A stretch of 41,045 bases of DNA, taken from positions 1 through 41,045 of the forward strand of contig JAQVVD010000011.1 of the NCBI GenBank assembly GCA_028699155.1, read 5' to 3'. Below, piece by piece: positions 8,897 through 32,827 of this stretch (positions within the stretch are counted from its first letter, which is position 1; every line of letters begins with the position of its first letter). Position numbers and translations under genes: made by a program. Below the pieces are notes generated by a model that was given only the letters and a program-made list of their open reading frames with translations, made no database searches and had not been told where the DNA came from. Source of the stretch: Candidatus Peribacteraceae bacterium (GTDB lineage Bacteria > Patescibacteriota > Gracilibacteria > Peribacterales > Peribacteraceae).

Positions 8897-8969
8897 GTCA
8901 AAGGGGGAAAGTGAAAAAGAATAAAGGGTTCAAGAATGAGTGAAGCGTGAGACTTCAATCGCGCAAGCG

Positions 8970-8999
8970 AGTCTACGGGTGCGGTTGCCTGCAAGTCAA
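8970..8999 (-). promoter_or_regulatory. promoter of tuf-rpsJ
   Basis: On the minus strand TTGACT (8999-8994), an 18-nt spacer and TAGACT (8975-8970) form a recognisable promoter. Transcription would start near 8963, giving a leader of about 65 nt before tuf. The leader is pyrimidine-rich close to the start codon and has no Shine-Dalgarno sequence. Confidence 0.6.
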
Positions 9000-9066
9000 C
9001 AGATTCACCCAGAAAGAATGAGGTTTTTACCGGCTGCATTTTTGGGAACACCCCTCTAGAATCCGG

Positions 9067-10056: not shown

Positions 10057-10059
10057 AGG

Positions 10060-10872
10060 TTACTGCTGCGCACCAGTATCGGTGCCTGTTGTGCCCCCAT
10101 TATGGGCGGTTTCTTCCTTTATCTCTTCGATTACTTCCTGCAGCCGAGTCGAACTCTGCTCCGCAGGGGGAGGAGGGACTGCCGTCTGCTGCTGCTTCTC
10201 TGGTATCAGAGTGGCCATGGAGCCCATCTTCTTTTTCAGCAGCATGAATGCCCCCAGGCTGAGCGCCCCCAGTATCGCGGCGATGCCGATCACTTCGATG
10301 CCGCCGATGCCGGAGAGCATTTCTTCCCGCGCGGATGGCGCGGGTGATGGCACAGGTTCTTCCTCTTCCGGCGTTTCCTCTTCTTCGGTTATTTCAGCCT
10401 GTCGCTCTGCCGCCTGCAAGGCTTCTATGAGCGCATCCGGATCTGCTCCTTCATCATCCGTCCTATCTTCCGCAGGAAGAACTTCTTCCTCTGTCGGCTG
10501 ATTCTCCGTCGTGCCATTCGGATCCGCCAGAGGTTCGGCGATGTCCACGGGCTCCCCGCCGCGGTAGAACGTGCGTGCGGTATCCGTAGGAACTTCTTCT
10601 TCAGCTGCCGGTCTGAGGAGAGCATCCGATCCGTCGACAGTTTCCGTATCCGCATCGGATGGTATATCGCCGTTTTCGTCGGATGCGGCGTCCGTTCCGT
10701 TGGCAGGCGGCACAGCCGTTTCCTCCGGTGATGGCAGGGATTCGGTCGATGGTTCCGCCGGCAGCTCAATGCCGAAGACTTCCTCCGGCGAGAGGTATGC
10801 AAGCGCCGGGATGGGCAGGCAGATGCCGATTGTCAGTATCGCCAGAATGGGTGCTTTGCGGAGAATCTTCAT
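10060..10872 (-). CDS. secreted/anchored acidic single-pass protein of unknown function
   Basis: The 270-aa protein has a signal peptide (about residues 1-25, ending PALAY). A long disordered stretch rich in Glu, Asp, Pro and Ser follows (about 26-185), then one transmembrane helix (VIGIAAILGALSLGAFMLL, about 195-215). A basic stop-transfer KKK and a short cytoplasmic Pro-rich tail complete it. No enzymatic motif is seen. Its ATG overlaps the stop of the giant Cys-rich protein gene (ATGA, 10869-10872), so the pair is translationally coupled. It may act as a membrane anchor or stalk for that protein, which is an inference from coupling and topology. It ends 3 bp from the convergent mutY stop. 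Confidence 0.75.
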   Translation of the reverse strand: MKILRKAPILAILTIGICLPIPALAYLSPEEVFGIELPAEPSTESLPSPEETAVPPANGTDAASDENGDIPSDADTETVDGSDALLRPAAEEEVPTDTARTFYRGGEPVDIAEPLADPNGTTENQPTEEEVLPAEDRTDDEGADPDALIEALQAAERQAEITEEEETPEEEEPVPSPAPSAREEMLSGIGGIEVIGIAAILGALSLGAFMLLKKKMGSMATLIPEKQQQTAVPPPPAEQSSTRLQEVIEEIKEETAHNGGTTGTDTGAQQ

Positions 10873-13800
10873 AGAATAAAGAGGAGAGAAGCGAGGACGG
10901 ATGTTACCTTAGAGAATATGGAAATGATGTGAGCGAACGGAGGACTGTTGATGTACAGGGAGGTACTGCACACGTCTGTCTGTTGGCTGTGGCATAAGCG
11001 CGCAGTAGAGTTCGGTTGCGCGAACGCGCTGTTTGCGGAGGTGAGAGGGATGTAGACCTGAATCTTGCTGCCGCGCCTGCAGAGGTACTGTTTGCTCGCT
11101 TCCATGAAGCCGCGGGATGTTTCCAGGATAGCGCACGTATCGAAGTCTTTGGAGTACGTAATGAGCAGTACATCGCCCTGCAGATTGATGCTGTGGAGCG
11201 TTATGGGAGCGGACGTAGGCAGGGAGAGCGTTGGAATGAGGATTTGGCACTCGGATGGTTCCCCGAAGCACTGCCATCCGTCTTCGATATTGCAGGTGCC
11301 CGAGCAACCGTCATCATCCTTCGTATTCCCGTCGTCGCACTGCTCTTTCCCCTCGATCTTTTCGTTGCCGCACACTGCTGTAACCTGTCGGCAGGTTTCC
11401 GGACAGCTCGGATCCAGTTCCGTGTAGTACCTGCAGGTATTCTGTGTGTTCTGTGCGGCGCAGTCCGCATCGGATTCGCAGATGAGAGCGTACGGGTTCT
11501 TTCCGCAGCGCTTGACGCTGGTGCCCGGTATCAGCTCGCACCTGTTGCAGTCGCTGCTCGTGCGGCACGAGAGGGACGTATCATGCGAACAGACCGCACC
11601 GTTGTCGCACTGTTCGCCAAGCGTTTCCTGCACGATTGCATCGCCGCAGAACTCCTTGAGGCACGCTGCGGCACAGCCGTCTCCATCCTTCGTATTCCCG
11701 TCGTCGCACTCCTCCTCTTCCTCTGCTGTGCCATTGCCGCATTGCTCCTGGGGCACGTCAACGCGCGGGACGCACTCGCCGGTACAAACCGTTATGCAGG
11801 GTTTGCCTGGCTCGCATGGGTAGGGGTTGCAAACACCCTGATCAGTCGTGCAGAACATGTTTTGCGGGCATTCTGCGCTCGATGTACAGAATTCCGGGAC
11901 GGGCGCTTTGCAGTCTGCCGGGCAGTTGCAGTGGTCCTCGCCCGATGCGCAGGTGCCATTGCCGCAGGTCTGTCGCCAGCCGTCCACGCATGTTCCCTGC
12001 GATCCGTCATTCATGCTGATGCATACGCCATTCACCGCAACAGTAGCAGGTTTGATGCCAGAATTTTCATTGCAGCAAGTGGTGGGGCCAAGTGCTGCGC
12101 TCCCATAGACTTTCTGACCGTTTTCAGCGCATTCCGGTTCCGGTGATGCAGGGCAGTCCTGCGGGCAGTTCAGTCTCTCATCCTCGCTCTCGCACACGCC
12201 GTTGCTGCATACAGGGCCGCCGGACGGACAGTCTGCCGGGCAGACTGCGTGGCACTCCGTTACGCAGGGGGTTCCGGGGAGGCACTGTGTGCAGATGATG
12301 CGAGCTTCCTCCTCATCGCAGATGCCATCTCCGCACTGCGTGGCACTCGGCGCTACGCTGACCGAGAGGAGAACCGTATGTTTGCGGTTCTGGATGAAAC
12401 CGACGAGCATGAAGCGGTAGGTGGCATTCGCATCGTTTGCCGTAGGAGTCCATTCCAGGCGCACGGCAGCCGTACCTTGTGTAACGGTAGCCTGCTGCGG
12501 GAATTGCTTGCCGGAATTCTGGTTGAAGATTTGATGATCCAGGCTGTTGACGCTTCCGTCGAAGTTCAGGTCGTACTCCGGATCGTAGAGCGCATCTCCC
12601 CTCACGGAGCCGTATTTGGCTGCGAGGAATACCAGATCGCTTGCTGCCACCTTCTTATCTCTGTCGAAGTCTCCTGCGAGCAGAAGGGCGTACTGCCCGC
12701 CGGCAGGCGTCGGATGTTCCAGTGAGAACGTCTTGCCGACACTCGCATTGAATGTTCTCTGCATGTCCCATCCTTCGATTGCTTCCTGCTTGCATTCACC
12801 AGAGCAGCCGTCTCCGTTCTGCTTATTCCCGTCATCGCACTCCTCACCCGTCTCTACCTTGCCGTTGCCGCAGGCAGGTTCTGCGTCCAGAATCTCCGCG
12901 ATTTTTGCGTCAATCGCATCCTGGAAGTGCCGTGCCTCTATATCTCTCCGGATATCGCGGCTGTACCCGTAGGTTGCCGGATCCTTGCCCGACTGCAGCT
13001 GTGCCACAGTGTGCAGTTTTTTAGGCTGTGAGTCATAGAGGTACACGTTCATGCTGTCGAGCACTGTTTTCTGTTCCCATCCGGCGCCATCTGTTTGCTG
13101 TCGCTCCATCTTCTGTTTTTGTGCAACGAAACTCAGGAAGCGTCCTGTTGCATCCTCGAATCGCAGTGCCGTAATAGTGGGTATCTGCTGGATAATCAAT
13201 GCGGGAATAGAGGTGTCATCGGGGTATTCGTACACACTGATACCGAGTACTGGCGTGGGCGACTGCGATGCTTCCTGCCATATGTACAACATGTTTTCCT
13301 GTACAGTTTTGTACTGCGGAATTCCGCCCGTTGTTCCGAGAGTGTCAAGATACCGCTTGTTCATCGCGGCTACGAATGCAACCCTCTTCCCGTCGCGGGA
13401 AATTACGACGTTCAATTCTGACGTAGGCAGGAGCATACTGGCCGGCGCGACAGTATCCGCAACAATATTCTCTGTCGTGCCGTCCTCCGTCCTGATCCGC
13501 AGCACGGAGGTCTGGTAGGTGAATACCACCTGGTTATTCGCTCCGGACGTTCTGTTCCTGCTGGTTCTCCGCACCGCAACGTACCGACCGTCACCCGAAA
13601 TGGTGGGCTGTGAGAATGACGTGTACTTGTCTGCTCCAGTGATGAGCTCACGCACGCTCCGTTTTCCCGTATCCAGGAAGTAGACGCTGGCGGGACGTGG
13701 TCCCCCGTCTGTCGGCTGGACGTACACCAACTTCTTCCCGTCTTCACTCATGCTCAGGTGTGCCGTGTGGGTAGACAATGAGTTCATGGCATTGGTCATA

Positions 13801-14981
13801 TGCTCATCGAAGGTGCGGGAATCCGTTTCTGTGCACACGCTGGGTTCGCCTATGCATGACCATGCATCCTCAATGCGACATGCGCTGTCGCACCCGTCTC
13901 CGTCTTCCGTATTCCCGTCATCGCACTCCTCATCTTCTTCCACGATGCCGTTGCCGCAGACAGATTCCTCATCATCATCACCGGTTTCCACCGTGCAATT
14001 CGCACTGCAGCCATCGCCGTCTTCCGTATTCCCGTCATCGCACTCCTCTCCTTCTTCTTTCAGACCGTTGCCGCATTCATCAGGTTGGACGCACTTATTC
14101 TCCACGCAAAGAGTCTCCGGAGCACAGACGAGTCCGCTGTCGCCGCATTCCAGCAGACAGATGTCGGCGCATCCGTCGCCGTTCACGGCGTTCCCGTCAT
14201 CGCACTCCTCTCCTTCTTCTTTCAGACCGTTGCCGCATTCATCAGGTTGGACGCACTTATTCTCCACGCAAAGAGTCTCCGGAGCACAGACGAGTCCGCT
14301 GTCGCCGCATTCCAGCAGACAGATGTCAGCGCATCCGTCGCCGTTCACGGCGTTCCCGTCATCGCACTCCTCACCTTCTTCCACGATGCCGTTGCCGCAC
14401 CCATATTCATCATCATCGGTCTCCACCGTGCAATTCGCACTGCACCCGTCTCCGTCTTCCGTATTTCCGTCATCGCATTCCTCCGCGCCTTCCAGCACTC
14501 CATTGCCGCAGGCCTGCACGTAGCTTATGCCTTCGCCGCACCGGAAGAAGAGGTCCTTCTCCGTCATGAAGTAGTAGGCTTTTCCTCTCTGGAGAGTGCC
14601 TAACTTGTTGATGACGCCGTACTTGGGATTCACATGCAGTTCTCCTTTGGATATGTGGAACTTCCCGTGGAACGGGGGTTCGTCTCCCGTAAATTCGTAT
14701 CCCCAGAACCGCACTTGTTCATTCTTCTCCACCGGTCCGGAGAACGCGGGAAATGCGCCGTCGCCGTCACAGCGTACCTGGTTGTGGTCGTTTGCCTTGA
14801 TCACGATGCCCTTTTCGCACTGGGCTTTCGTGTAGGCGTGAATGGCCGGCACGTACGTGGGTGCGGCCTGACCGAGCAGCGCCCCGCCGTCGCGGACATT
14901 CACTGTCGCGAAGAAGGCGAGCGCGCTCAGCGCGAACGCCCCGAGGAGGAAACGCCTGTTTCCGAAGAGTGACGCGGACAT
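10869..14981 (-). CDS. giant secreted Cys-rich protein: DUF4215 repeats, beta-propeller-like and dockerin-like segments
   Basis: This is a protein of about 1370 aa. An N-terminal signal or anchor segment (RRFLLGAFALSALAFFATV) is followed by five DUF4215-type (Myxococcus Cys-rich) repeats with the pattern CGNG-x-EEGEECDDGN-x5-GCxxxC. A middle region of beta-propeller-like strands follows (TISGDGRYVAVRR, VISRDGKRVAFVAAM), then a sixth repeat. Next comes a dockerin-like Ca2+-binding pair (LLAGDFDRDKKVAASDLVFLAAKYG ... DLNFDGSVNSLDHQIF). Further Cys-rich modules and about three more repeats lead to a hydrophobic C-terminal tail. It is surely extracytoplasmic and likely disulfide- and Ca2+-stabilised; adhesion or surface recognition is inferred. 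The ATG at 14981 is chosen for the signal peptide and for its upstream promoter. It is coupled to the acidic protein. Confidence 0.85.
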   Translation of the reverse strand: MSASLFGNRRFLLGAFALSALAFFATVNVRDGGALLGQAAPTYVPAIHAYTKAQCEKGIVIKANDHNQVRCDGDGAFPAFSGPVEKNEQVRFWGYEFTGDEPPFHGKFHISKGELHVNPKYGVINKLGTLQRGKAYYFMTEKDLFFRCGEGISYVQACGNGVLEGAEECDDGNTEDGDGCSANCTVETDDDEYGCGNGIVEEGEECDDGNAVNGDGCADICLLECGDSGLVCAPETLCVENKCVQPDECGNGLKEEGEECDDGNAVNGDGCADICLLECGDSGLVCAPETLCVENKCVQPDECGNGLKEEGEECDDGNTEDGDGCSANCTVETGDDDEESVCGNGIVEEDEECDDGNTEDGDGCDSACRIEDAWSCIGEPSVCTETDSRTFDEHMTNAMNSLSTHTAHLSMSEDGKKLVYVQPTDGGPRPASVYFLDTGKRSVRELITGADKYTSFSQPTISGDGRYVAVRRTSRNRTSGANNQVVFTYQTSVLRIRTEDGTTENIVADTVAPASMLLPTSELNVVISRDGKRVAFVAAMNKRYLDTLGTTGGIPQYKTVQENMLYIWQEASQSPTPVLGISVYEYPDDTSIPALIIQQIPTITALRFEDATGRFLSFVAQKQKMERQQTDGAGWEQKTVLDSMNVYLYDSQPKKLHTVAQLQSGKDPATYGYSRDIRRDIEARHFQDAIDAKIAEILDAEPACGNGKVETGEECDDGNKQNGDGCSGECKQEAIEGWDMQRTFNASVGKTFSLEHPTPAGGQYALLLAGDFDRDKKVAASDLVFLAAKYGSVRGDALYDPEYDLNFDGSVNSLDHQIFNQNSGKQFPQQATVTQGTAAVRLEWTPTANDANATYRFMLVGFIQNRKHTVLLSVSVAPSATQCGDGICDEEEARIICTQCLPGTPCVTECHAVCPADCPSGGPVCSNGVCESEDERLNCPQDCPASPEPECAENGQKVYGSAALGPTTCCNENSGIKPATVAVNGVCISMNDGSQGTCVDGWRQTCGNGTCASGEDHCNCPADCKAPVPEFCTSSAECPQNMFCTTDQGVCNPYPCEPGKPCITVCTGECVPRVDVPQEQCGNGTAEEEEECDDGNTKDGDGCAAACLKEFCGDAIVQETLGEQCDNGAVCSHDTSLSCRTSSDCNRCELIPGTSVKRCGKNPYALICESDADCAAQNTQNTCRYYTELDPSCPETCRQVTAVCGNEKIEGKEQCDDGNTKDDDGCSGTCNIEDGWQCFGEPSECQILIPTLSLPTSAPITLHSINLQGDVLLITYSKDFDTCAILETSRGFMEASKQYLCRRGSKIQVYIPLTSANSAFAQPNSTARLCHSQQTDVCSTSLYINSPPFAHIISIFSKVTSVLASLLFIL
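14041..14364. repeat. near-perfect 162-bp tandem duplication inside the DUF4215 gene
   Basis: Unit 1 (14041-14202) and unit 2 (14203-14364) appear to differ by a single base (ATGTCGGCG versus ATGTCAGCG). Each encodes one 54-residue module containing CGNGLKEEGEECDDGN and CVENKCVQPDE. The near-identity implies a recent duplication or ongoing homogenisation. Confidence 0.85.
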
Positions 14982-15017
14982 GGGAGGATGGGGAAATGTA
15001 TGTGAAAAATTCTCCCT

Positions 15018-15046
15018 ATTGTACCAAAATTTTCCCTTGGTGTGAA
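15018..15046 (-). promoter_or_regulatory. promoter of the DUF4215 protein gene
   Basis: On the minus strand TTCACA (15046-15041), 17 nt, TACAAT (15023-15018). It lies downstream of the rny hairpin and gives a leader of about 30 nt before the ATG at 14981. Confidence 0.6.
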
Positions 15047-15068
15047 GGGCAGATCCGGTTTGGGTTCC

Positions 15069-15100
15069 CAAAGCCGCACGCGGGAACGCATGCGGCTTTG
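15069..15100 (-). terminator. hairpin downstream of RNase Y gene
   Basis: CAAAGCCGCA (15069-15078) pairs with TGCGGCTTTG (15091-15100): a 10-bp stem with a 12-nt loop, 18 bp after the rny stop codon. There is no clear U-run on the minus strand, but its place between rny and the next promoter suggests termination or 3'-end protection. Confidence 0.55.
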
Positions 15101-15117
15101 TTTCTATGAATGCATGC

Positions 15118-16674
15118 CTACTTCGCCGTCTCGATGATCCTCCTGTCCCGGATGACGTTCACCTTGATCACGCCGGGGTACGTGAGCTCATCCTCAATTT
15201 TCTTCGTGATGTTCTTCGCGAGTTTCTCCTGCTCCAGATCCGTTACTTTCGCCGCATCCACGTACACGCGGATCTCGCGGCCGGCGGAGATGGCGAACGC
15301 GCGCTGCACGCCCTCGAAACTCTTGGCGGCCTCCTCCAGTTCCTTTAAGCGCTTGATGTACGCTTCCACGGACTCTTTGCGGGACCCGGGGCGCGCGCCG
15401 GAGATCGCATCCACCGCGGCGACAATGAATGCTTCCGGCGACTGCATCGGCACGTCTTCGTGATGCGCCTCCACGCAGTGGATCACTTCCGGGCGAATCT
15501 TGAACCGCTTGCAGATCTCCACGCCGATCTCCACATGCGTTCCTGCCACTTCGTGGTCGAGTGCTTTGCCGACGTCATGGAGCAGACACGCCTCCACGAC
15601 GGTCCGTGCATCCGCGCCGATTTCCTCCGCAAGCATCCGCCCGATGTTCGCCATTTCCACGGAGTGCTTGAGGATGTTCTGACCGTAGCTGGTGCGGAAC
15701 CGCAGGCGTCCGATGATCTTCATGAGATCCTGCGGGTAGCCGGTAATGCCCAGCTCCGCAGTGGCGCGCTTGCCGAATTCCAGCATCATCTTTCCGACTT
15801 CTTCCTTCATCTTCTCCACGACTTCCTCGATGCGCGCCGGCTGGATGCGGCCGTCCTTGATCAGCTTCTCCATCGCCAGTTTCGCCACGTAGCGCCGGGC
15901 AAGGTCAAAGCCGGAGATGATGATGGCGCCGGGCGTATCATCGATCACGATGTCTACGCCGGTGAGCTGCTCGAACGTAGTGATGTTGCGGCCCTCCTTG
16001 CCGATGATCTTGCCTTTCACGTCGTCGGAAGGGAGTTGCACGATGGTCGCCGTCGATTCGCTGGCGACCTCGGACGCGTAGCGATGAATCGCTTCGACCA
16101 TCAGGTTCTTCGCATCCTCCTCGTACTCCGCTGATTTCTCCGCTTTCAGGCGCTTGAGTTGCTCCGCGTAGAAGCCGGAGAATTCCTCCTCCAGTTCGGC
16201 CCAGAGCAGTTTCCTGGCTTCTTCTTCGCTCAATTTCGATACTTGTTCCAGCGCTTTGCGGTGCTGCTGCGCGGCAGCGGAGAGTTCCCCGCGCATCTCC
16301 TCGACGTTCTTCTCCTTATCGGCGAGGGAGGTACGTTGGCGATCGACCTCTTTCACTTTCTCATCGAGGCTTTTCTCCTTCTCCTCCAGGCGGGCCTGTT
16401 CTGCCTCAATCTTGGATTCCGCCTCGCTCGCACGAATCTTCGCTTCACTGATGATTTCCTTGGCGGCCACCCGCGCTTCGTTCTCCGCGACTTTTATGGC
16501 GTTCTGCGCTGCCGATGCTTTCTGCTGGAGATTGCTGACTTCTTTCTCCTGCTCGCGAATTTGCGTGAGCAGGGCCTGGCTCATTTTCTTGTTCTTGGAG
16601 AACCAGAATCCGCCGACGAGCACGCCAAGAGCGAAGCCCGCAGCGATAACGAGATAGATGATGATTGTTGGCAT
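15118..16674 (-). CDS. rny: ribonuclease Y
   Basis: RNase Y is a membrane-bound endoribonuclease that initiates mRNA decay. The 518-aa protein shows the full order: an N-terminal transmembrane helix (about 3-25), a long coiled coil rich in Glu, Ala and Lys (about 30-190), a KH domain with VQLPSDDVKGKIIGKEGRNITTFE, then an HD domain with LLHDVGKALDHEVAGTHVEIG (His-Asp near residue 363). The end, IRVYVDAAKVTDLEQEKLAKNI ... YPGVIKVNVIRD, is diagnostic. Length and architecture are standard. Its mRNA seems to start near 16836, leaving a leader of roughly 160 nt. With rnc in the same window, two central RNases of this organism are accounted for. Confidence 0.97.
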   Translation of the reverse strand: MPTIIIYLVIAAGFALGVLVGGFWFSKNKKMSQALLTQIREQEKEVSNLQQKASAAQNAIKVAENEARVAAKEIISEAKIRASEAESKIEAEQARLEEKEKSLDEKVKEVDRQRTSLADKEKNVEEMRGELSAAAQQHRKALEQVSKLSEEEARKLLWAELEEEFSGFYAEQLKRLKAEKSAEYEEDAKNLMVEAIHRYASEVASESTATIVQLPSDDVKGKIIGKEGRNITTFEQLTGVDIVIDDTPGAIIISGFDLARRYVAKLAMEKLIKDGRIQPARIEEVVEKMKEEVGKMMLEFGKRATAELGITGYPQDLMKIIGRLRFRTSYGQNILKHSVEMANIGRMLAEEIGADARTVVEACLLHDVGKALDHEVAGTHVEIGVEICKRFKIRPEVIHCVEAHHEDVPMQSPEAFIVAAVDAISGARPGSRKESVEAYIKRLKELEEAAKSFEGVQRAFAISAGREIRVYVDAAKVTDLEQEKLAKNITKKIEDELTYPGVIKVNVIRDRRIIETAK

Positions 16675-17059
16675 AATGGGAGGGGGCAGACGAAAAGAAA
16701 TCGTTCGTCATGCCCTGTACGACGGGCTCACAGGCGCCAGCGGCACGTGATGAGTTGCTTCATGGATGGTCTTTCTAAAGGGTTGAAAACACATGGGAAT
16801 TCTCCACGAATCTCCGTACAGGGAGAAGAACATTGTAGTGCGAGTATACCATTGAATTCTCCGAAGATCGAGTGTGTCTGTTTTGGCTTACATAAGCGTT
16901 CTGACGAATGCGAGCCAAAAAAAAGTCGTTGATTTTCCCCGTGGAATGTGTGGGAGTGTTCTCTCCCGTGAAAGAACGGAGGAAACGGCTTCCTGCTCAC
17001 CTGTACGCAGGAGCATTCTGCTTCAGGAGCACGCCGGCGGTTCCGGAAGATGGAACTGC
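16675..17059. other. 385-bp intergenic region: rny promoter and leader, LTD gene upstream region
   Basis: No gene is supported here. On the minus strand an extended -10 element TGGTATACT (16851-16843) is the best rny promoter candidate. The 160-nt transcribed leader that follows shows no Shine-Dalgarno sequence and no recognised riboswitch. On the plus strand a reading frame open from 16874 runs into the LTD gene, but its first 62 codons read like non-coding sequence. I found no tRNA or repeat. Confidence 0.5.
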
Positions 17060-19321
17060 ATGGTGAGATACCGTGCTATGCGCATCTTTCGGTTCCTCTT
17101 CCTTTTCTTCCTGGTGTGCGTTGCCCTCTACGCCCGGCGCGCATCGGCTGCTGCCGTCATCAGCGAAGTGCTGTGGATGGGCTCGGAGCGCAGCACCGCC
17201 GATGAGTGGGTGGAACTGGCCGGGGTGGGGGAGGCGCAGGACATGAGCGGCTGGACGCTTACTGCGCTCGCAGGCAACGGCGAGGAAGTTGCGATGGTCC
17301 GCTTCGCGGAGGGAACGGTCATTCAGGCGGGCGGCTACATGGTCATCAGCAATTTCGGCGCGCAGGAATCGTGCCTCTTGAACGAGCCCGCAATTGTCAC
17401 GACAGCAATCGCGCTCCCGAATTCCAAACTGCTCCTGCGCCTCTACGACGCGAGCGGCGCGCTCATAGACCAGGCGGATGACGGCGTCGGCGAGCCGTTT
17501 GCAGGCATCAATGCTTCCGGCACCGGCACGCGCGCCAGCATGGAGCGCATTGATCTCACGCTTCCCGGCGACCAGAAGGAGAACTGGGCGCACGCCGTGG
17601 TGAAGCTGGGGTTGGACGAGGAGTGCGCGGTGCTCGGGACGCCGGGGCGGGGGAGAGAAGTTGTAGAGGTGGTAGAAGTACCGGAGGTAGAAGAAGTGGT
17701 AGAAGTACCAGAGGTTGTAGAAGTGGAAGAGGAGAACGCGTCTTCCACCTCTTCCACTTCGTCTGCTGTTTCTGTCTTCATCACAGAGATCCTCGCCAAT
17801 CCTCCCGGCGCAGATGATGCGGAGTGGGTGGAGATTGCGAATCTCGGCGCGGAGAGCGTAGACATCGCAGGCTGGGTGCTCAAATTGGAGAGCGCGGGGA
17901 AAGGGTACAAAATTCCTGAGACACAGGCGGGATCGGGCTTTCTGCTCGCGCCCGGGCAGCATGCCGTCTTTCGGAAGACCGAGAGCGGCATTGCGCTCAA
18001 GAATGCGGGAGATACCGTTCTCCTCCTCCATGGCGATACGGTGATGCACGCACTCTTCTACTTCGAGACCGCGGAGAACGTGAGCTACGGGCTGGACCCT
18101 TACGATCCCAGCCACCCCATGCGGCTCTGCCTGCCGACACCCGGTGCGGCAAACCGGCTCTCCTCCATAGATGTCTCCATCGGTATCCAATCACATACGG
18201 GAAAGAGCATGGAGAAGGGGGTCATATCCGGCGTGGGGAAAGTGAGCGTGAATCCGGAGGCCAGGTCGCCGCACTCGCTCACGGGGATTGCATGCAGGTG
18301 GAATTTCGGCGACGGGGAGACGAGCGACAGCTGCAATCCAGGCGCGCACGTGTACGACCTGCGTGGCGCGTATGGCATCACCATGCAGGCAGTGGATCAG
18401 TGCGGGAGCGTGAGCAGCGATGAGCTGGCGGTGTTTGTGGAGGAGAAGGAATGCAAGGATTGCCAAGAAAACAAGGAAAGCAACGAAGGCGAAGGGGAAA
18501 CAAGTTCCTTGCCTTCTTCGCTTTCCTTGCAATCCTTTTCATCTTCCCATTCCTCCTGCGTTCCCTCCAACTTCTCCGGCATCGCTGTTTCAGAATTCCT
18601 GCCGAACCCCGCGGGTGACGATGCGGCGGGCGAGTGGATCGAGCTCGTCAATCAGGCGGAGCAGGAAGCCGATCTCTGCGGGTGGTCCGTGGACGACGCG
18701 GAGGGCGGGAGCGAGCCGTTTTCTCTGGATGGTCTCACCATTGCGCCCGGCAGATTCCTGCTGCTGCCCAGGGCGCAGACCAAGATCGCGCTCAATAACA
18801 GTGACGATGCCGTGCGGCTGTTCGCGCCGACGGCATCGGGGAGTTCACTCCTGCAAGAAGTGCCCTACGGCAAGGTGAAAGAAGGCGAGTCCTACGCGCT
18901 CACCGGGAGCGGCGCGTACGCGTGGACGGCGGAGCCGACACCGGGGTACGCGAATGTTCTCCTGTTGGGAAACAAGGAAGAATTAAAAAGTACAAAGTCA
19001 AAAACAAGCGTAAAATCAGAGGGAAAAACCGAACAAAAAAATTATACAAGTAGCACGGTGAAATCCACGGGAAAGCAGACTGTTGCTTCCAATTGGCTCA
19101 CAACCCGGTACCGGAATGTGCTGCCGCAGGTGGAGGAGGTAGAGGAGGAGATTCCGGAATCGCACAGGTATCTGGCGCAGGCGATCCTGCCGGGAGCGAA
19201 TACGCCGTTGCCCGTTCTTCCTGATGCACAGAAAGGGGGAGGGGAATTCGTCTTCGTCCTCATCGCAAACGCAGCCGGAGCACTGTTTCTGATTGCGAAG
19301 AAGGGGATTATTGACAAATAG
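17060..19321 (+). CDS. surface protein with three lamin-tail domains (LTD) and a PKD-like domain
   Basis: From the ATG at 17060 (or 17078) the product is about 750 aa. A signal peptide (FRFLFLFFLVCVALYARRASA) is followed by LTD1 (AVISEVLWMGSERSTADEWVELA) and a Val-Glu-Pro repeat linker. LTD2 (FITEILANPPGADDAEWVEIAN) and a PKD-like fold with CRWNFGDGET follow. A low-complexity linker leads to LTD3 (AVSEFLPNPAGDDAAGEWIELVN), a Lys/Ser/Thr-rich tail and one C-terminal transmembrane helix ending KKGIIDK. It should be displayed on the cell surface by its C-terminal anchor; the role (adhesion, DNA or glycan binding) is unknown. The last 72 bp, up to the stop, recur exactly at 23328-23399. Two of the linkers are encoded by palindromic repeats. 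Confidence 0.85.
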   Translation: MVRYRAMRIFRFLFLFFLVCVALYARRASAAAVISEVLWMGSERSTADEWVELAGVGEAQDMSGWTLTALAGNGEEVAMVRFAEGTVIQAGGYMVISNFGAQESCLLNEPAIVTTAIALPNSKLLLRLYDASGALIDQADDGVGEPFAGINASGTGTRASMERIDLTLPGDQKENWAHAVVKLGLDEECAVLGTPGRGREVVEVVEVPEVEEVVEVPEVVEVEEENASSTSSTSSAVSVFITEILANPPGADDAEWVEIANLGAESVDIAGWVLKLESAGKGYKIPETQAGSGFLLAPGQHAVFRKTESGIALKNAGDTVLLLHGDTVMHALFYFETAENVSYGLDPYDPSHPMRLCLPTPGAANRLSSIDVSIGIQSHTGKSMEKGVISGVGKVSVNPEARSPHSLTGIACRWNFGDGETSDSCNPGAHVYDLRGAYGITMQAVDQCGSVSSDELAVFVEEKECKDCQENKESNEGEGETSSLPSSLSLQSFSSSHSSCVPSNFSGIAVSEFLPNPAGDDAAGEWIELVNQAEQEADLCGWSVDDAEGGSEPFSLDGLTIAPGRFLLLPRAQTKIALNNSDDAVRLFAPTASGSSLLQEVPYGKVKEGESYALTGSGAYAWTAEPTPGYANVLLLGNKEELKSTKSKTSVKSEGKTEQKNYTSSTVKSTGKQTVASNWLTTRYRNVLPQVEEVEEEIPESHRYLAQAILPGANTPLPVLPDAQKGGGEFVFVLIANAAGALFLIAKKGIIDK
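17720..17760. repeat. inverted repeat in an LTD-protein linker
   Basis: GAAGTGGAAGAGG (17720-17732) and its reverse complement CCTCTTCCACTTC (17748-17760) flank 15 bp. They encode first the Glu-rich and then the Ser/Thr-rich half of the linker between LTD1 and LTD2. Directly upstream lie degenerate repeats of GTAGAAGTACC. Confidence 0.75.
18455..18537. repeat. long imperfect palindrome in the second LTD linker
   Basis: AAGGATTGC (18455-18463) pairs with GCAATCCTT (18529-18537), and AAGGAAAGC (18473-18481) pairs with GCTTTCCTT (18520-18528), with further partial matches inside. The coding result is a Lys/Glu-rich stretch followed by a Ser/Leu-rich one between the PKD-like and LTD3 domains. 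Confidence 0.75.
19248..19319. repeat. 72-bp direct repeat, copy 1 (3' end of LTD gene)
   Basis: This sequence encodes the C-terminal membrane anchor of the LTD protein and the first base of its stop codon. It is identical to 23328-23399. The identity extends to 76 bp with one mismatch on the left. It includes TTGACA (19311-19316), which has no suitable -10 here. Confidence 0.97.
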
Positions 19322-19381
19322 AAAGATATAGTTCATTTTTATCGTAGGAGGAGTACAATCAATTAAGTTACACTAGTAAGT

Positions 19382-19921
19382 ATGTCCATGGCACCAGATT
19401 TCCTACCTAAAACACATCGGCAAATCTATGATTGCAGTACCGAACTCCCTGCGGGAATTCACCATCTGGGTACACCAGCTGTAGAGATGTGCCAGCAGAT
19501 GCGCCAAACATTCCGAGATCTTTTGTTAAGTGAGGCTACTAATCCGATTCCAGCGATTGATCGTTCGTATCAACTCGCTTTTTTGCTGGGAGAAAATGAT
19601 AGATTGCTAAGTCAGTATGAGAGAGAAGAAGGGCATGCAAGAATCGCAGCTCGCTACGAGGGGGATACCAGCATTCGGCAGGTTGCGGATGCATTATTGC
19701 GGGACAAGCAGGCTTTGAAAGAGAGATTGGAGAGAGAAAAAGAGGAGGAACGCAGGAGGAGAAACCCCCCAGTAGCTACAGTTCCTACGTCTCAGGCACA
19801 TGTGCCAGATCTCCCAAAACTGACACGACCAAATTTCAGAAGAATAGCAAGGAGCCAGCAGATTCTTGGAGCAGCGGGTAAGCACGCGTTTAAACTTTTT
19901 GGCATCTCAGATGGAGAATGA
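19382..19921 (+). CDS. 179-aa protein of unknown function, paralogue of the 255-aa protein at 25074
   Basis: No known domain is recognised. Residues about 35-115 align by eye with the product at 25074-25841: AIDRSYQLAFLLGENDRLLSQYE against ALDDSHRLAVVVGQSAGLLDAYE, with a following charged helix (KERLEREKEEERRRR against QEREEAAQRMREEEK). Both end in a basic C-terminal region (here FRRIARSQQILGAAGKHAFKLFG). The protein looks soluble and mostly helical. The ATG at 19382 follows a -10-like TACACT (19369-19374) by 7 nt, hinting at a leaderless mRNA. It is the only plus-strand gene within the repeat-bounded block. Confidence 0.7.
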   Translation: MSMAPDFLPKTHRQIYDCSTELPAGIHHLGTPAVEMCQQMRQTFRDLLLSEATNPIPAIDRSYQLAFLLGENDRLLSQYEREEGHARIAARYEGDTSIRQVADALLRDKQALKERLEREKEEERRRRNPPVATVPTSQAHVPDLPKLTRPNFRRIARSQQILGAAGKHAFKLFGISDGE

Positions 19922-20003
19922 AGAAAATACGTCGGAATATAGCTACGCAAGATGAATGAGTGCGGCATAGCAAAATAAACTACTTGGGAGTCTGATTGAT
20001 AAG

Positions 20004-20792
20004 CTATTTTCTAATGTCTTGCGGGAGTCCGAGTAGCTGGTTGAGCAGTTGTTGTTTCTGGGCTATCTCGCCTTCAATGAGGCGTTCCTGATCCGTTACT
20101 GCGCTTGGATGGAGTAGGGAGGACAATTCTTTATGGGTATCAATCGCGCATTCTTGCACTGCCAACGTACGTTCCATCATTTCCTGCAGGGGATCACCTA
20201 AGCAGCCAGGCATTTTTCTGATATCAACATTCTGTCCGATATTTTTGCGTATTGCAGCGGAAATAATTTTTACATCAAGTAAGCATCCCACCGTGTATTG
20301 GCGTGCATTCTTTTCCGCTCCATCGGATACAGCAAAGCCATGCCCGGGTAATGGGGTATCAAAATATTCACATGGAGTAACGCTCGGTCGAGTTCTTTGA
20401 AATTGCTCTCGCTCGTCTTCCCATTGGTAATAGCGCAGCTGATGTACATGTGTTCCATGCCGTATGCCACCAAAAAATTTCTTTACCTGGTGTGTAGCTG
20501 AAACAGGCGTTATAACTTCTTTCGCCGCATACATTTGTTGCCTTATTTCCTTCAGACCTGCAATTCCCATTCTAAGCAATTCAATCCTTTTTTCTCTTGG
20601 CGAGCGAATCGCCGTGAGTTGTGTTCTTAATTGCTGCAGACTTTCCATAAGTCTATTTACTGTTAGCACTCGCACCGCATCTATTTCTATATTTCCCTTT
20701 AGCTGCGCCCCCCCTTCCTGCGATTGAGTTAGTAATCTCTCGAGATCCCTAAGTAGCTCTGTATCTGCCGGCGTTTGGGGTTTTTTATCCAT
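20004..20792 (-). CDS. TPADTELLRDL-tag protein 3 of the tandem set (helical, unknown function)
   Basis: About 262 aa, no recognised domain. Residues 3-45 share the N-terminal block of the two upstream genes: KKPQTPADTELLRDL, then GAQLKGNIEIDAVR, matching GAQITGNIEIATVR in the next paralogue. The rest is mostly helical with heptad-like Leu spacing (LMESLQQLRTQL). A short central non-helical part and a C-terminal QKQQLLNQLLGLPQDIRK resemble the LDRLFGLPPSQSK end of the neighbour. ATG 20792 is chosen; an in-frame TTG two codons earlier is possible. It is last in a four-gene minus-strand operon, 15 bp after the previous stop. Codon use is AT-rich. Confidence 0.75.
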   Translation of the reverse strand: MDKKPQTPADTELLRDLERLLTQSQEGGAQLKGNIEIDAVRVLTVNRLMESLQQLRTQLTAIRSPREKRIELLRMGIAGLKEIRQQMYAAKEVITPVSATHQVKKFFGGIRHGTHVHQLRYYQWEDEREQFQRTRPSVTPCEYFDTPLPGHGFAVSDGAEKNARQYTVGCLLDVKIISAAIRKNIGQNVDIRKMPGCLGDPLQEMMERTLAVQECAIDTHKELSSLLHPSAVTDQERLIEGEIAQKQQLLNQLLGLPQDIRK

Positions 20793-20807
20793 AACCAAAA
20801 GAGGAAG

Positions 20808-21428
20808 TCATTTACTTTGAGATGGTGGAAGCCCGAATAGTCGATCCAGTCTTTGCTGGAGTTCGGAAATTTCTCTATCGATTATTGACAGTTCTGCGCT
20901 GCGTGTTTGTTGCTCCATATGCCGCAATGTGTCACGTACGGATTCAAGTCGCGAAAGATAGAATTTTAAACTTCCCTCCCCCCTCTCTATAAAAGCATTT
21001 TTCATTTGCTCTACAGAGCGATTAGATTGTGGCCACGTTTGGGACCCCACACAATTGCCAGGCGCTGGAATCCATTGCATAAAATATCCCGGGACGACTC
21101 TTCCATGTTCATCACAAACTTGTTGTGCTACTACTTTAGCCTCACGGATTGATGCAATTTCCCTTCTAATCTCAGCAACTTTAGTTTCGCACTGCGCGAC
21201 TGCTACCTGATAAGGTTTCAGATCGACGTTTTGTTTTTCGAATATTTGGTTTCTTCTTATTCTCAATTGGTCAATAGCTCTCGAAATTTCTTTTACCGCC
21301 TGCATCCGTACCGTAGCAATCTCAATATTCCCCGTGATCTGCGCACCGCTTTGATGGGACTGCTCTAACAATCCTGAGAGATCCCGCAGTAGCTCTGTGT
21401 CTGCCGGCGTTTTGGGTTTTTCAGGCAT
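20808..21428 (-). CDS. TPADTELLRDL-tag protein 2 of the tandem set (coiled coil, unknown function)
   Basis: 206 aa, no known family. It starts EKPKTPADTELLRDLSGLLEQS and continues GAQITGNIEIATVR, the part shared with tag protein 3. The centre (about 50-110) and the end (about 165-200, QTRSAELSIIDREISELQQRLDRLFGLP) are predicted coiled coils. Between them lies a short region with aromatic and Cys residues (FMQWIPAPGNCVGSQTWPQ) that could be a small loop or binding patch. The ATG is 6 bp after the stop of tag protein 1, so they are co-transcribed. No signal peptide or membrane helix is seen, so it is probably cytoplasmic. Confidence 0.75.
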   Translation of the reverse strand: MPEKPKTPADTELLRDLSGLLEQSHQSGAQITGNIEIATVRMQAVKEISRAIDQLRIRRNQIFEKQNVDLKPYQVAVAQCETKVAEIRREIASIREAKVVAQQVCDEHGRVVPGYFMQWIPAPGNCVGSQTWPQSNRSVEQMKNAFIERGEGSLKFYLSRLESVRDTLRHMEQQTRSAELSIIDREISELQQRLDRLFGLPPSQSK

Positions 21429-21434
21429 GATTAT

Positions 21435-22010
21435 TTAAAAATATTCCGGGACAAGTCCTCTGAGCTTTGTAAGGGTATCACTAATAAGCTTCAGATCGTG
21501 TTCAAGGATTTGAACGATTTCCGCATATATACCGATTCTGATTCCTTCAAAAGAATCATGATATTTTGCATATGTATCAATAAAATACTTATAATTGATG
21601 CGTCCCTGTCTGAGATCGTTAGATATTTCCGTTTCCATGGCTTTTATTGAGTCCACAATAAAAGCAGCTGAAATGCTAGATGGTTCACCTGATGCTCTCG
21701 ATACCAAATGTTCTATAGGTATGATTTGTAATGCCAGTCTTATTAGTTGCTGACGCTGGCTAGAAGCCGCTTGGCATTGTTTTAGATAAGGCTGTACATC
21801 TTCCACATCCATTAATTTTATCTTCTGGAGCATTGCATCCGCAGCTTGGTATTGCGAGTGTAATTGAGGCAGTCTCTGCATATTCAACAATAATGCCATA
21901 TCCTTTTGAGGTGATTGCACGTCTAACTCAGGTGTACTCTGCCCCCCAATTAATTTTGCTAGGTCTCGTAACAGCTCCGTATCTGCCGGTGTTTGTGGTT
22001 TTTTCTCCAT
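21435..22010 (-). CDS. TPADTELLRDL-tag protein 1 of the tandem set (helical, unknown function)
   Basis: 191 aa. The first about 20 residues (EKKPQTPADTELLRDLAKLIGG) match the other two tag proteins, but similarity then fades. The remainder is helical (MQRLPQLHSQYQAADAMLQKIKLM, HDLKLISDTLTKLRGLVPEYF). No catalytic motif, signal peptide or membrane helix is seen. It starts 3 bp after the stop of the TPR protein, so the two are tightly coupled. A short identical N-terminal tag on otherwise different bodies suggests a common docking or targeting signal; this is an inference. Confidence 0.75.
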   Translation of the reverse strand: MEKKPQTPADTELLRDLAKLIGGQSTPELDVQSPQKDMALLLNMQRLPQLHSQYQAADAMLQKIKLMDVEDVQPYLKQCQAASSQRQQLIRLALQIIPIEHLVSRASGEPSSISAAFIVDSIKAMETEISNDLRQGRINYKYFIDTYAKYHDSFEGIRIGIYAEIVQILEHDLKLISDTLTKLRGLVPEYF

Positions 22011-22013
22011 GGA

Positions 22014-23261
22014 TTAAGAGAGATGAGGCAGAAGAACGCAGAGTTCGTTATCCGTCGCAACATGCGCACGGTAGTACGCAGGATTTTTTTGGATCAGCAC
22101 TTTTAAGCATGCGGTAGCTTCCGCGCGTTTGCCTGCGCTGAATGCTACCTTCGCATAGAGGAACCACACTTCCAGATTATTGGGGTCCAGCTTGGTTGCC
22201 CGCCGCATGACACGCTCCGCGTGCGCATGCCGACCCATCTGCCGCAGGTTCTCCGCCAGATTCATTAGTGTATATGATGAAAGTTGAGGGTATTGCTGCA
22301 GCAGGTAATCGGCTTCACTGAACGCCACGGATGCCAGCTGCGTATTGCCGAGCGAACTCTGCACAGTGCCGGTAGAGACGTACACAAGGGGATTAATGTC
22401 ATCCTGCTTTTGCGCTTCCTGCAGGATGGCGAGCGTTCGGTCCAGATCCTGCAGCGAAGTCGCGCGTGCACGCGCGACTTCCGCGCGTTGCCACTGGTAG
22501 CGCGATTCCTTCTGCCGTTCCGTCATGCGTTGTGCTTCCAGTAATTGCTGGAGCAACCCTTGCTGCTGCTGGTGGGCGAGCATCACTTCCGCATGGGTCT
22601 GGAGGAAAGTTGAACGTACGCGATAAATTGCTTGCAGAACGGCCATCCGCGTAATGATTTGTTCATTGGTCATCTCTGTTACGCGTGAACCGATGTCTGT
22701 AAGAAGTGATTGTAGCAACTGTCTTGTGGCAGATGCTTCGTGACTAATTGTCATACTCATTCCGTCTACACGTTCTATTAATTTTCCACTGTTTACTGCC
22801 AGTTTTGATAAATGCTCTATCTGCGTATTACGTTGTTTAAAGGCGACAATAGCAGATGCAGCCGCAATTTCATTCCCTCGATATTGCAGCATGTTTCCTT
22901 GTTGGAGCAGCGGCGTGTGTGCTCCTGCGATTTGTACCATTGAACGTTGCGTGTCTATCACATCATCCAGTCGATCTGCCACTTCTCTCTGTGCTTCCGC
23001 CAGTTCGGATGTATCAAAAATAACTTCTGGTGCGGGCAAATACTCCGGGATTCGCTGTATCTGGGGTGCGGGCACCATTGCCCTGGAGGAAGAATGGAGC
23101 GCGCGTTCCGTCGTTTCCTGATGCCGGTCGAGCGCTTTGTGGATGCCTGCCAAATGCTTGAGCGCCAGGCCTTGGTCCGAGGTGAAAATGTTATAAGGAG
23201 CCCCGCCTACCAGGCTATCCACGAACTTCTGGCCGGATGATCTTTCAGGGGGTGTCGGCAT
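22014..23261 (-). CDS. TPR-containing coiled-coil protein, first gene of the tag-protein operon
   Basis: 415 aa. The N-terminal part (about 1-90) is Pro-rich and polar. A helical and coiled-coil middle follows (about 90-270, LLQQLLEAQRMTERQKESRYQWQRAEV). The last about 130 residues are tetratricopeptide-like helical pairs, clearest in YTLMNLAENLRQMGRHAHAERVMRRATKLDPNNLEVWFLYAKVAFSAGKRAEA. TPRs usually serve as protein-binding scaffolds, so it may bring together the three tag proteins encoded directly downstream; that is inferred from the operon. The gene has its own promoter (TTGACA at 23301-23296, minus) close to the ATG. The 3' half of the gene is visibly more GC-rich than the 5' half, hinting at mosaic origin. 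Confidence 0.78.
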   Translation of the reverse strand: MPTPPERSSGQKFVDSLVGGAPYNIFTSDQGLALKHLAGIHKALDRHQETTERALHSSSRAMVPAPQIQRIPEYLPAPEVIFDTSELAEAQREVADRLDDVIDTQRSMVQIAGAHTPLLQQGNMLQYRGNEIAAASAIVAFKQRNTQIEHLSKLAVNSGKLIERVDGMSMTISHEASATRQLLQSLLTDIGSRVTEMTNEQIITRMAVLQAIYRVRSTFLQTHAEVMLAHQQQQGLLQQLLEAQRMTERQKESRYQWQRAEVARARATSLQDLDRTLAILQEAQKQDDINPLVYVSTGTVQSSLGNTQLASVAFSEADYLLQQYPQLSSYTLMNLAENLRQMGRHAHAERVMRRATKLDPNNLEVWFLYAKVAFSAGKRAEATACLKVLIQKNPAYYRAHVATDNELCVLLPHLS

Positions 23262-23271
23262 GAATAATTGG

Positions 23272-23301
23272 TATTAATTCATATTTAGTGACTAATGTCA
23301 A
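23272..23301 (-). promoter_or_regulatory. promoter of the TPR/tag-protein operon
   Basis: On the minus strand TTGACA (23301-23296) is followed after 17-18 nt by ATTAAT/TTAATA (23278-23272). The ATG at 23261 is only about 10 nt further, so the operon mRNA is probably leaderless. It lies 26 bp inside the repeat-bounded block, pointing inward. Confidence 0.55.
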
Positions 23302-23327
23302 ATAGCAATTGTTTATCAGAGCAGAAC

Positions 23328-23399
23328 TCGTCTTCGTCCTCATCGCAAACGCAGCCGGAGCACTGTTTCTGATTGCGAAGAAGGGGATTATTGACAAAT
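23328..23399. repeat. 72-bp direct repeat, copy 2 (displaced 3' end of LTD gene)
   Basis: An exact copy of 19248-19319, here not attached to an LTD gene. In frame it would read ...AELVFVLIANAAGALFLIAKK..., with a stop codon only about eight codons upstream of the repeat. The TTGACA at its right end (23391-23396) is the -35 of the promoter for the 458-aa gene, so this junction looks like the original downstream context of the LTD gene. Confidence 0.97.
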
Positions 23400-23418
23400 T
23401 ATTATAAATATGTAGAAT
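23391..23418 (+). promoter_or_regulatory. promoter of the 458-aa gene, -35 embedded in the direct repeat
   Basis: TTGACA (23391-23396), 16 nt, TAGAAT (23413-23418), in an AT-rich stretch. The -35 is made from the last codons of the LTD gene remnant. The leader to ATG 23448 is about 23 nt and lacks a Shine-Dalgarno sequence. Confidence 0.7.
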
Positions 23419-23447
23419 AGAGGCATAGTACTTTCCAATTTCTTGCT

Positions 23448-24824
23448 ATGCCAGATACACATGGTCCCGACGCCACGCCGCCTTCTCCTGAGCCGGGTGC
23501 GAACGGGCGGGCCCGTTCCTACAAGGATGTCATGGCCCACGGCAGTGCCGAGGTGATAGGTGTAGCCGGTACATTCAAGGACCGGTTCGGTTCTGTGATT
23601 CCCGCACACGAAGAGCATGCAGACAAGCTCGATGATACGTATCAATCGTTCGCGGCGGGTCATGATGATGTGAGCGAGAGGGCGAGAGCAGTGCTGGAGC
23701 GCCTAGGCATTCCGCCCGAGGAAATCGAGCGGCGGTTTGAGGGCGTGCATGGCAGGAAAGAGCAGGCGAAATTCGGCACGTTCGCAGCGCGGCGCGAGCA
23801 GCACCGTGCGGTCAAGGAGGCGCTGCGCGTACTGCGCGAGAATGAAACAGAGGGGAACCGCGATGACTTCGTGCGCGCGTACGTCGTAGAGAGCGATTCC
23901 AATGTGGATGACTGGTTCTTCACGCACTTTGAGAGCGAGACGGCAGAGATCTTCATGCTGGAGGGCGATCCTGCAGATGCCTTCGCCAAGGCGGAAGCGC
24001 TGGTGAAGCGCGTGATGGCGAAGTTCGCTGCGCAACCGGAACTGCAAACACCGTTCATGGAGAAGGTGCAGGAGAGGGCAGGCATGGAGGATTTCCAGGG
24101 CAAGTCGCCGGAAGCGAAACTCGAGATCCTGCACCAGATTGTGGAGCTGGAGGCGCTCGAACTTGCGAAAGCAGCCGGCCTGATGCGCTTCCTCGCGAAT
24201 ATGCCGACAGAGGCGCTGGATGCCTACTACGGTAAGACGCTCGATCCCGATGGCAACCCCAAAGAGGAGCCTAACATGCTCGCGCTTTTCAACGGTGAGC
24301 AGTCCATCGGCGATGTGGTCCCCGCCAAAGCGCGTGTGCAGGTGATCATCAACAACAAGACATTCGACTGGTACATGGCAGACGAAGTCCCTGCTGAGGT
24401 GACTGCAGCAATGCGGCCTCCTGTGAACGCAAAAATCGTGCAGCTCTTCTACAGAGAAGACAAGGACGTAAATGCGCTCATGGCGCACCTGAGCATCGGG
24501 CAGGTCTACCGTTGCAAGCGTGCTGATTCCGATACGGAGATCGTGCTGGAAGGCACGATGGGTGATGCGTACAAAGTCGTCTCCGGTTTGAGCGATGCGG
24601 AGGTGGCGGACTTCCAGGCACGCCCGATGAAGTACCTTGCCTACGCGCGTCCGGGCATTGATCTGAATACCGCCCCGACCGATGGCGGCACTCCTGTGCG
24701 CATCCCGGAGGCGGGGAGAGGAGGTGCGACAGATGTCGTCGGTGGAGCATCCGGGAGACCATTGCCTTGGTTGCAGAGAGTTTGGAATGCAGGCTCAAGA
24801 CTATTCCGGAGGCGTGACCGATAA
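23448..24824 (+). CDS. 458-aa protein of unknown function, first gene of the 23-31 kb cluster
   Basis: No family is recognised. The N-terminal 25 residues are Pro/Gly-rich and polar. Residues about 35-270 are mainly charged helices (ARAVLERLGIPPEEIERRFEGV, EALELAKAAGLMRFLANMPTEAL). Residues about 290-400 look more beta-rich (ARVQVIINNKTFDWYMADEV, VYRCKRADSDTEIVLEGTMGDAYKVV). The end is basic and aromatic (WLQRVWNAGSRLFRRRDR), resembling membrane-touching or nucleic-acid-binding tails. No signal peptide or transmembrane helix is visible. It is driven by its own promoter and followed 39 bp later by the 63-aa gene. The coding pattern is solid (GC-rich third positions). Confidence 0.8.
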   Translation: MPDTHGPDATPPSPEPGANGRARSYKDVMAHGSAEVIGVAGTFKDRFGSVIPAHEEHADKLDDTYQSFAAGHDDVSERARAVLERLGIPPEEIERRFEGVHGRKEQAKFGTFAARREQHRAVKEALRVLRENETEGNRDDFVRAYVVESDSNVDDWFFTHFESETAEIFMLEGDPADAFAKAEALVKRVMAKFAAQPELQTPFMEKVQERAGMEDFQGKSPEAKLEILHQIVELEALELAKAAGLMRFLANMPTEALDAYYGKTLDPDGNPKEEPNMLALFNGEQSIGDVVPAKARVQVIINNKTFDWYMADEVPAEVTAAMRPPVNAKIVQLFYREDKDVNALMAHLSIGQVYRCKRADSDTEIVLEGTMGDAYKVVSGLSDAEVADFQARPMKYLAYARPGIDLNTAPTDGGTPVRIPEAGRGGATDVVGGASGRPLPWLQRVWNAGSRLFRRRDR

Positions 24825-25073: not shown

Positions 25074-25841
25074 ATGCCAATCACCTCACCAGATTACGAT
25101 TTTCTGCCGGATGACACGCACCATGCGCTCGCTGCCATTGGGTACAGGCATCGCCCGGTGATCAGGGGGGCAGATCCTGCGATGGAGCCTCAGCGCGAGG
25201 AAATGAGCAGAAGAATACAACAATTGTTTACCGAGAGGGGCGATGGCCGCGGTGCGATGGCTCTCGATGACTCGCATAGATTGGCAGTGGTCGTAGGGCA
25301 GAGTGCGGGGTTGCTGGATGCCTATGAAAATTTCCCGGGCCACGGGGATGTAATTCCTTACAGGGAAGACCATGCTCATTTGATGGAACTTGCACGGAGA
25401 CTTTTCCGCGATTGGGGGCAGGAACGTGGAGAGGGAGAGATTGATGAGGAATCTGGCCGGATGATGCAAGCAGCACAAGAGAGAGAAGAAGCAGCACAAA
25501 GGATGCGGGAAGAGGAAAAGAATGAATCAAAAGAACCAGCGAAAACTACTGTCTATTCCTCCATCAAATTCAATCCTCTCACGCCCCAGCGAGGCCGCAG
25601 CCTGTTTGCAGGCATCGGATCCAAGAAAGGCACGCTCTCCGGACGGCTCTTCCATTGGCTGGGCCAGCGCACGATGTCGGAGACGTATGCAGAGATAATT
25701 CCGTTCCCTACCAAGCCGGAGACGACAGCGCCGGCGGCACCTAGCCAGGAGGAAAAACCGGCTCCAAAAAAGGAGAAAACCGAGAAGAAAACAGATGGTG
25801 GAGAGGAGGCGGGAGAGGAGAAAAAGAAGAAGGCCGCATAG
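25074..25841 (+). CDS. 255-aa protein of unknown function, paralogue of the 179-aa protein at 19382
   Basis: Residues about 45-150 are similar to the 179-aa protein in the repeat-bounded block (shared order: a helix with ALDDSHRLAVVVGQSAGLLDAYE, then a charged helix). The later part differs: TPQRGRSLFAGIGSKKGTLSGRLFHWLGQR (about 180-205) and a long Lys/Glu/Pro tail (about 220-255, KPAPKKEKTEKKTDGGEEAGEEKKKK), likely disordered. No signal or membrane helix is present. It is third in the unknown cluster. The relation to the 19382 gene is the main evidence that the repeat-bounded block and this cluster share ancestry. Confidence 0.75.
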   Translation: MPITSPDYDFLPDDTHHALAAIGYRHRPVIRGADPAMEPQREEMSRRIQQLFTERGDGRGAMALDDSHRLAVVVGQSAGLLDAYENFPGHGDVIPYREDHAHLMELARRLFRDWGQERGEGEIDEESGRMMQAAQEREEAAQRMREEEKNESKEPAKTTVYSSIKFNPLTPQRGRSLFAGIGSKKGTLSGRLFHWLGQRTMSETYAEIIPFPTKPETTAPAAPSQEEKPAPKKEKTEKKTDGGEEAGEEKKKKAA

Positions 25842-32114: not shown

Positions 32115-32158
32115 TATCCTTTCAATACTTCATTCATTCTCAATACTGAGAGATTTTT

Positions 32159-32195
32159 GCACGTTGAAAACCGTGGGGGGACGCCACGGTTTGGA
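32159..32195 (-). terminator. repeat/terminator hairpin, left copy
   Basis: AAACCGTGG (32168-32176) pairs with CCACGGTTT (32184-32192). Read on the minus strand, the stem is followed by a short T-run, so it fits a terminator after the GIY-YIG gene. The whole 37-bp unit recurs at 32841-32877 with one mismatch. Confidence 0.7.
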
Positions 32196-32213
32196 AGAAT
32201 AAATGAACAGCGT

Positions 32214-32712: not shown

Positions 32713-32733
32713 AGGAGCGGGAGTATATCAGAG

Positions 32734-32827
32734 ATGTCATGGTTCGACAGAGCTCACCATGACATGGCAACATCATGATTCGACCAATCTACGCCAAGGC
32801 TACGCCCGGCAAGCAGAGCACCATGAC
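32734..32827. repeat. REP-like palindromic cluster, right of the GIY-YIG gene
   Basis: ATGTCATGGT (32734-32743), loop TCGACAGAGCTC and ACCATGACAT (32756-32765) form a perfect 10-bp hairpin. A second unit (32774-32827) parallels the larger unit at 32214-32267 with several substitutions and a two-base gap. It overlaps no gene but begins next to the nuclease promoter. Confidence 0.85.

Follow-up and report, generated by a model that had tools for sequence, protein, structure and literature searches.

Organization of the locus

The stretch of DNA analysed here, hereafter the window, comprises 41,045 nucleotides and corresponds to contig C16 of a Candidatus Peribacteraceae bacterium, the genome of which is a draft of 1.18 Mb in 44 contigs. 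It encodes a surface protein with three LTD domains and a PKD domain (Pfam) and a C-terminal hydrophobic anchor (LTD gene, 17078-19321, plus strand). An AT-rich block (19320-23327) follows this gene and is bounded by two direct repeats of 72 bp, copy 1 at 19248-19319 and copy 2 at 23328-23399, both on the plus strand. The copies are 100% identical and their spacing is 4,080 bp, so that the block measures 4,008 bp between the copies and 4,080 bp with one copy included. The first gene past the block (23448-24824, plus strand) encodes a 458-aa protein and is preceded by a promoter-like site (23391-23418, plus strand). Copies 1 and 2, at the left and right ends of the block, are termed attL-like and attR-like from their geometry alone.

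A search of the whole genome found the 72-bp repeat twice, both times at this locus. Shuffled windows gave no match to it, even when up to 3 mismatches were allowed. Thus, the perfect repeats bounding a 4.08-kb block that a preliminary description of this DNA had reported are identical, unique in the genome and absent from shuffles. The 70-bp flanks to the left and right of the two copies aligned no better than shuffled sequences, and homology ends at the repeat. Immediately to the left of the repeat, 6 of 9 bases are identical between the copies, a match that hints at microhomology at best. A dyad within the repeat, TCATCGCAA/TTGCGAAGA with a 24-bp spacer, was estimated to lie within chance.

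Copy 1 is the tail end of the LTD coding region, its 72 nt finishing with the first base of the stop codon. The open reading frame (ORF) opens at 16874, translation probably starting with the signal peptide MRIFRFLFLF (17078), and runs through copy 1 to 19321, confirming that this copy is the 3' end of the gene. Read in frame, copy 1 encodes VFVLIANAAGALFLIAKKGIIDK, a hydrophobic helix and basic tail forming the C-terminal membrane anchor of the LTD protein. A hydrophobic helix with a short basic tail also ends the LTD proteins of many relatives. The TAG stop takes its first base from copy 1 and the remainder from the block. Since copy 1 stops at this first base, it is the block that completes the LTD stop codon.

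Copy 2 contributes to the expression signals of the following operon. Its TTGACA (23391-23396) is the -35 element of a sigma-70-like site, TTGACA-16-TAGAAT, the -10 element of which lies in the right flank. This site matches at 11 of 12 positions, has the top score of the region and stands ahead of the 458-aa gene, in agreement with the earlier assignment of that gene's -35 to the repeat. The TTGACA of copy 1 lacks a suitably spaced partner, and no promoter-like site there makes use of it.

The locus in related genomes

The locus was compared within a family of 74 genomes, from which 39 relative loci were fetched, all from outside the genus of the bacterium studied here. LTD homologues occur in 68 of the 74 genomes. 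In the relatives, the order is rny (minus strand), LTD (plus strand), one to several variable genes in the direction of LTD, then carA. The variable genes often include a 739-like and a 1028-like gene, the 1028-aa gene being found in 14 genomes of the family. The gene after LTD has the same orientation as LTD in 32 of the 34 loci where a following gene is present, and is usually close to it.

Homologues of the block genes were found at none of the 39 loci. In one relative with a complete single-contig genome (G052, locus L100), the gene that begins 31 bp past the LTD stop is homologous to the 458-aa gene (phmmer E 1.1e-6, residues 246-370). In another (G048, locus L045), a homologue of a 255-aa gene that lies in the cluster downstream of the block (25074-25841) occupies the second position after LTD. 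These two gene orders are most simply explained if LTD and the 458-aa gene once lay side by side and the block came between them. An exact nucleotide-level empty site, as sought by the preliminary description, was not found among the relatives compared, all of which lie outside the genus.

Considering the absence of the block from the 39 loci, the close and mostly co-oriented following gene and the arrangement in G052, the block is best read from these gene orders as a lineage-specific insertion, not as a duplicated segment. Integration at the 3' end of LTD with reconstitution of the coding sequence, as first proposed, is supported by both the synteny of the relatives and the reading frame.

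When the first 19 relative loci were searched for other spaced repeats of at least 24 bp, the only one detected measured 26 bp, so that no second case was found. The contigs of four loci (L032, L055, L059 and L060, the last being contig C39 of the genome studied here and its second LTD locus) break off within the LTD gene or a short way past it, as would be the case if the downstream region varied between strains.

Composition and genes of the block

The GC content of the block is 46.5%. Across the genome, 4-kb windows average 55.9% (sd 3.7%), and 8 of the 189 windows are as low as the block. The low GC is mostly found in 19320-22010 (44%), so the block is indeed AT-rich in large parts.

The block had been described as carrying only unknown genes, which needs correction for two of them. 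The first gene (19382-19921, plus strand) encodes a 179-aa protein related, as a diverged paralogue, to the 255-aa protein encoded in the downstream cluster (BLASTP E 2e-7, 29% identity). This score was reached by none of 2,000 shuffles, even without the charged tail. The second is a 415-aa coiled-coil and TPR protein (22014-23261, minus strand; Pfam TPR_2, 5.6e-10), the structure model of which is poor and of low confidence. It is encoded by the first gene of a tight four-gene operon on the minus strand, followed by genes for three paralogues of 191 aa (21435-22010), 206 aa (20808-21428) and 264 aa (20004-20798). These paralogues share a near-identical 17-residue N-terminus, KPQTPADTELLRDL; elsewhere they are 21-32% identical to the 206-aa member. 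Such a pattern points to a docking tag, which the TPR protein encoded in that operon might recognise, or to gene conversion at the 5' end. For the 206-aa protein, an all-helical coiled coil is predicted (pLDDT 73), and the model had no match in the PDB at E<=0.001. A TTGACA-N8-TAAATATG motif is common to the region upstream of the TPR operon (23262-23310, minus strand) and the promoter of the 458-aa gene (23391-23418, plus strand).

Searches for mobility genes and donors

The genes of the block gave no match to an integrase, resolvase, transposase or relaxase. This agrees with the earlier remark that no integrase is visible, and the term non-autonomous fits a block in which no recombinase gene was found. 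The genome contains two tyrosine recombinases, on contigs C1 (Xer-like) and C40, both outside the window; the assignment of C40 to this organism is uncertain.

Several types of known island were rejected. The block contains no tRNA and no Rfam family, and its best PHROG match was weak (E 0.03), so that an island derived from a tRNA, another RNA or a phage was discarded. A defence island was also discarded, since PADLOC matches were only near E 0.03. Similarly, a DDE transposon or insertion sequence does not fit, as the block ends have no inverted similarity above shuffles and the duplication is 72 bp rather than short. No relative of the three tagged paralogues was found in 288 genomes of the class, 380 genomes of the phylum, genome_contigs or viral contigs. 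A search for a donor of the block, or for a parent among integrative and conjugative elements (ICEs) and integrative and mobilizable elements (IMEs), found no relative in genome_contigs, viral contigs, plasmids or phages; the donor search was equally negative in the 288 class and 380 phylum genomes.

Two further features of the window are reported for completeness. An ORF at 32332-32712 (minus strand, within 32130-32880), named GIY-YIG-like endonuclease from reading its sequence, is flanked by repeated sequences of 24-30 bp (32167/32849, 32254/32748 and 32279/32737). In relative G012 (L053, 4645-4983), an ORF 53% identical to it overlaps the LTD stop. Moreover, a cysteine-rich gene of 1,400 aa (10869-15071) contains a perfect repeat of 137 bp, the period of which is 162 bp (13890-14442).

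Origin of the block

By whatever route it arrived, the block is very probably an insertion. Its likeliest history, which we hold with moderate confidence, is a single-crossover additive (Campbell-type) insertion within the 72-bp identity. In the ancestral state, LTD would have been followed directly by the promoter and gene that now occupy 23391-24824. The repeat at the end of LTD would then have been joined to TATTATAAATATGTAGAATAG, with a reading frame predicted to run on to ...IIDKLL-stop. The incoming DNA, presumably as a circular intermediate, would have carried the block together with a duplicate of the 72-nt LTD end, and one crossover within the 72-bp identity would have left one repeat copy at each end of the block. 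Copy 1 and the TAG supplied by the block would thereby regenerate the LTD membrane anchor, while copy 2 would preserve the -35 of the downstream operon. The recombinase may have been host RecA, a tyrosine recombinase acting in trans or an integrase since lost. Recombination between the two copies would excise the block precisely. Points in favour of this history include the uniqueness of the perfect repeat and the lack of homology beyond it, the gene order in the relatives, the atypical composition of the block and the absence of its tagged coiled-coil genes from the 288 class and 380 phylum genomes.

Promoters in the relatives fit this ancestral arrangement. Indeed, a sigma-70-like promoter is located at or just past the LTD stop, as at copy 2, in several of them (L044, L058, L056, L045 and L101), the site most like copy 2 being that of L101, ATTGACAAAT...TACAAT (ATTGACAAATGAATGTAAAATAGTACAAT). 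These sites are taken as supporting evidence only, because a general local DNA alignment of each junction to the LTD ends of relatives did not separate the two copies (15 versus 14 loci) and does not favour copy 2.

This lack of discrimination weighs against a Campbell-type history, as does the lack of an exact empty site in the relatives, and further points belong on the same side. The DNA of the LTD 3' end is not conserved, and that of no relative resembles the repeat beyond about 10-15 bp, which would be unusual for the target of a site-specific integrase. The GC and tetranucleotide values of the block are unusual, not unique (8 of 189 windows each). The absence of a recombinase from the block, the unconserved target and the restriction of tyrosine recombinases to C1 and C40 argue against a dedicated integrase. 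Homologous recombination over 72 bp and a replicative illegitimate event are real alternatives to such an enzyme.

Homology-facilitated illegitimate recombination and microhomology-mediated replicative insertion (the microhomology-mediated break-induced replication, or MMBIR, model; PMC2621351) are known routes, which could add foreign DNA and a local duplication without a recombinase borne by the element. Here, while foreign or allelic DNA was being taken up, a replication fork would have switched to a donor, copied the block and come back 72 bp upstream of its point of departure, thereby duplicating the LTD end; selection would then have retained only insertions sparing the anchor and the promoter. 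We consider this a possible but distinctly less probable history. It would account for the absence of a recombinase, the unconserved target, the hypervariability of the locus across the family and the 6 of 9 bases left of copy 2 that match LTD sequence. The resemblance of the first block gene to a gene of the downstream cluster is also what is expected of DNA from a related locus. However, both chance and selection are needed to explain why the 72-bp duplication ends precisely at the stop codon. Moreover, the microhomology, present just at the right junction, is imperfect, and the left flanks are dissimilar overall.

An unlikely alternative separates the block from the repeat. The block would be old, and copy 2 would be a later templated duplication of the 72-bp LTD end that gave the next gene a new -35. 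Perfect identity dates the repeat as young and says nothing of the age of the block, and the TTGACA of the repeat does build an 11/12 promoter. But two independent steps are then required, and relatives have the next gene directly after LTD. There is a smaller chance still that the rny-LTD-carA interval serves the family as a dedicated cassette-exchange locus, in which a trans-acting recombinase swaps blocks between copies of the LTD 3' end. If so, sets of surface-associated genes would vary, with the anchor and promoter regenerated each time.

An artefact of assembly or strain mixture is very improbable. The assembly is a draft of 44 contigs, and at least one of these, C11, looks foreign. Contig C11 (L077, G000:C11) belongs to the same bin and encodes a protein with the N-terminus LEPLEDRCMLS, typical of planctomycetes; it looks like bin contamination. 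However, contig ends of this assembly overlap one another by 124-127 bp, which indicates a de Bruijn assembly at k of about 127. This k exceeds the repeat by about 55 bp, so single k-mers contained each junction and a k-mer misjoin is unlikely; the repeat, moreover, occurs nowhere else in the genome. A k-mer-type artefact was therefore rejected.

The least probable explanation, that the LTD region was duplicated in tandem and then decayed, could invoke the paralogy of the 179-aa and 255-aa genes, but it was rejected because paralogues 29% identical and repeats 100% identical cannot stem from one event, and no LTD-like sequence is found left of copy 2. Segmental duplication, the alternative offered in the preliminary description, likewise finds no support: the block has no second copy in the genome, its coiled-coil and TPR genes and the repeat each being confined to this locus, and the only likeness to the flanks is that one old paralogue.

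Comparison with known systems

Integration at the 3' end of a protein gene is exemplified by e14 at icd. IMEs, prophages and islands with tyrosine integrases target the 3' ends of protein genes (PMC5704250). The locus resembles these elements in that the 3' end of the target is regenerated by the element's own copy, but differs in that the block has neither an integrase nor an identifiable core with arm sites, and in that the target is unconserved across the family. Cis-mobilizable elements (CIMEs) are decayed ICEs or IMEs that keep attL and attR and have lost the genes for recombination and transfer (PMC5704250). By analogy, the block may resemble a decayed island of this type, as no recombinase or transfer gene was identified in it. 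It differs from CIMEs in showing no trace of an ICE or IME parent among the sequences searched, in its repeat of 72 bp compared with 8-60 bp for usual att repeats (PMC5704250) and in its target, a fast-evolving surface gene. The five complete Candidatus Peribacter riflensis genomes differ chiefly by indels in twelve proteins, of which seven are very large and several are predicted to be extracellular (PMC4736985).

Altogether, the block is a real insertion with clear boundaries, specific to this lineage, that regenerates its target gene. It is a fresh example of a known insertion type, and its mobility is putative. It provides a concrete case of a small, streamlined genome gaining genes beside a surface-protein gene with neither neighbour broken. 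The rny-LTD-...-carA interval is conserved and hypervariable, and gene gain in it can be traced across the whole family.
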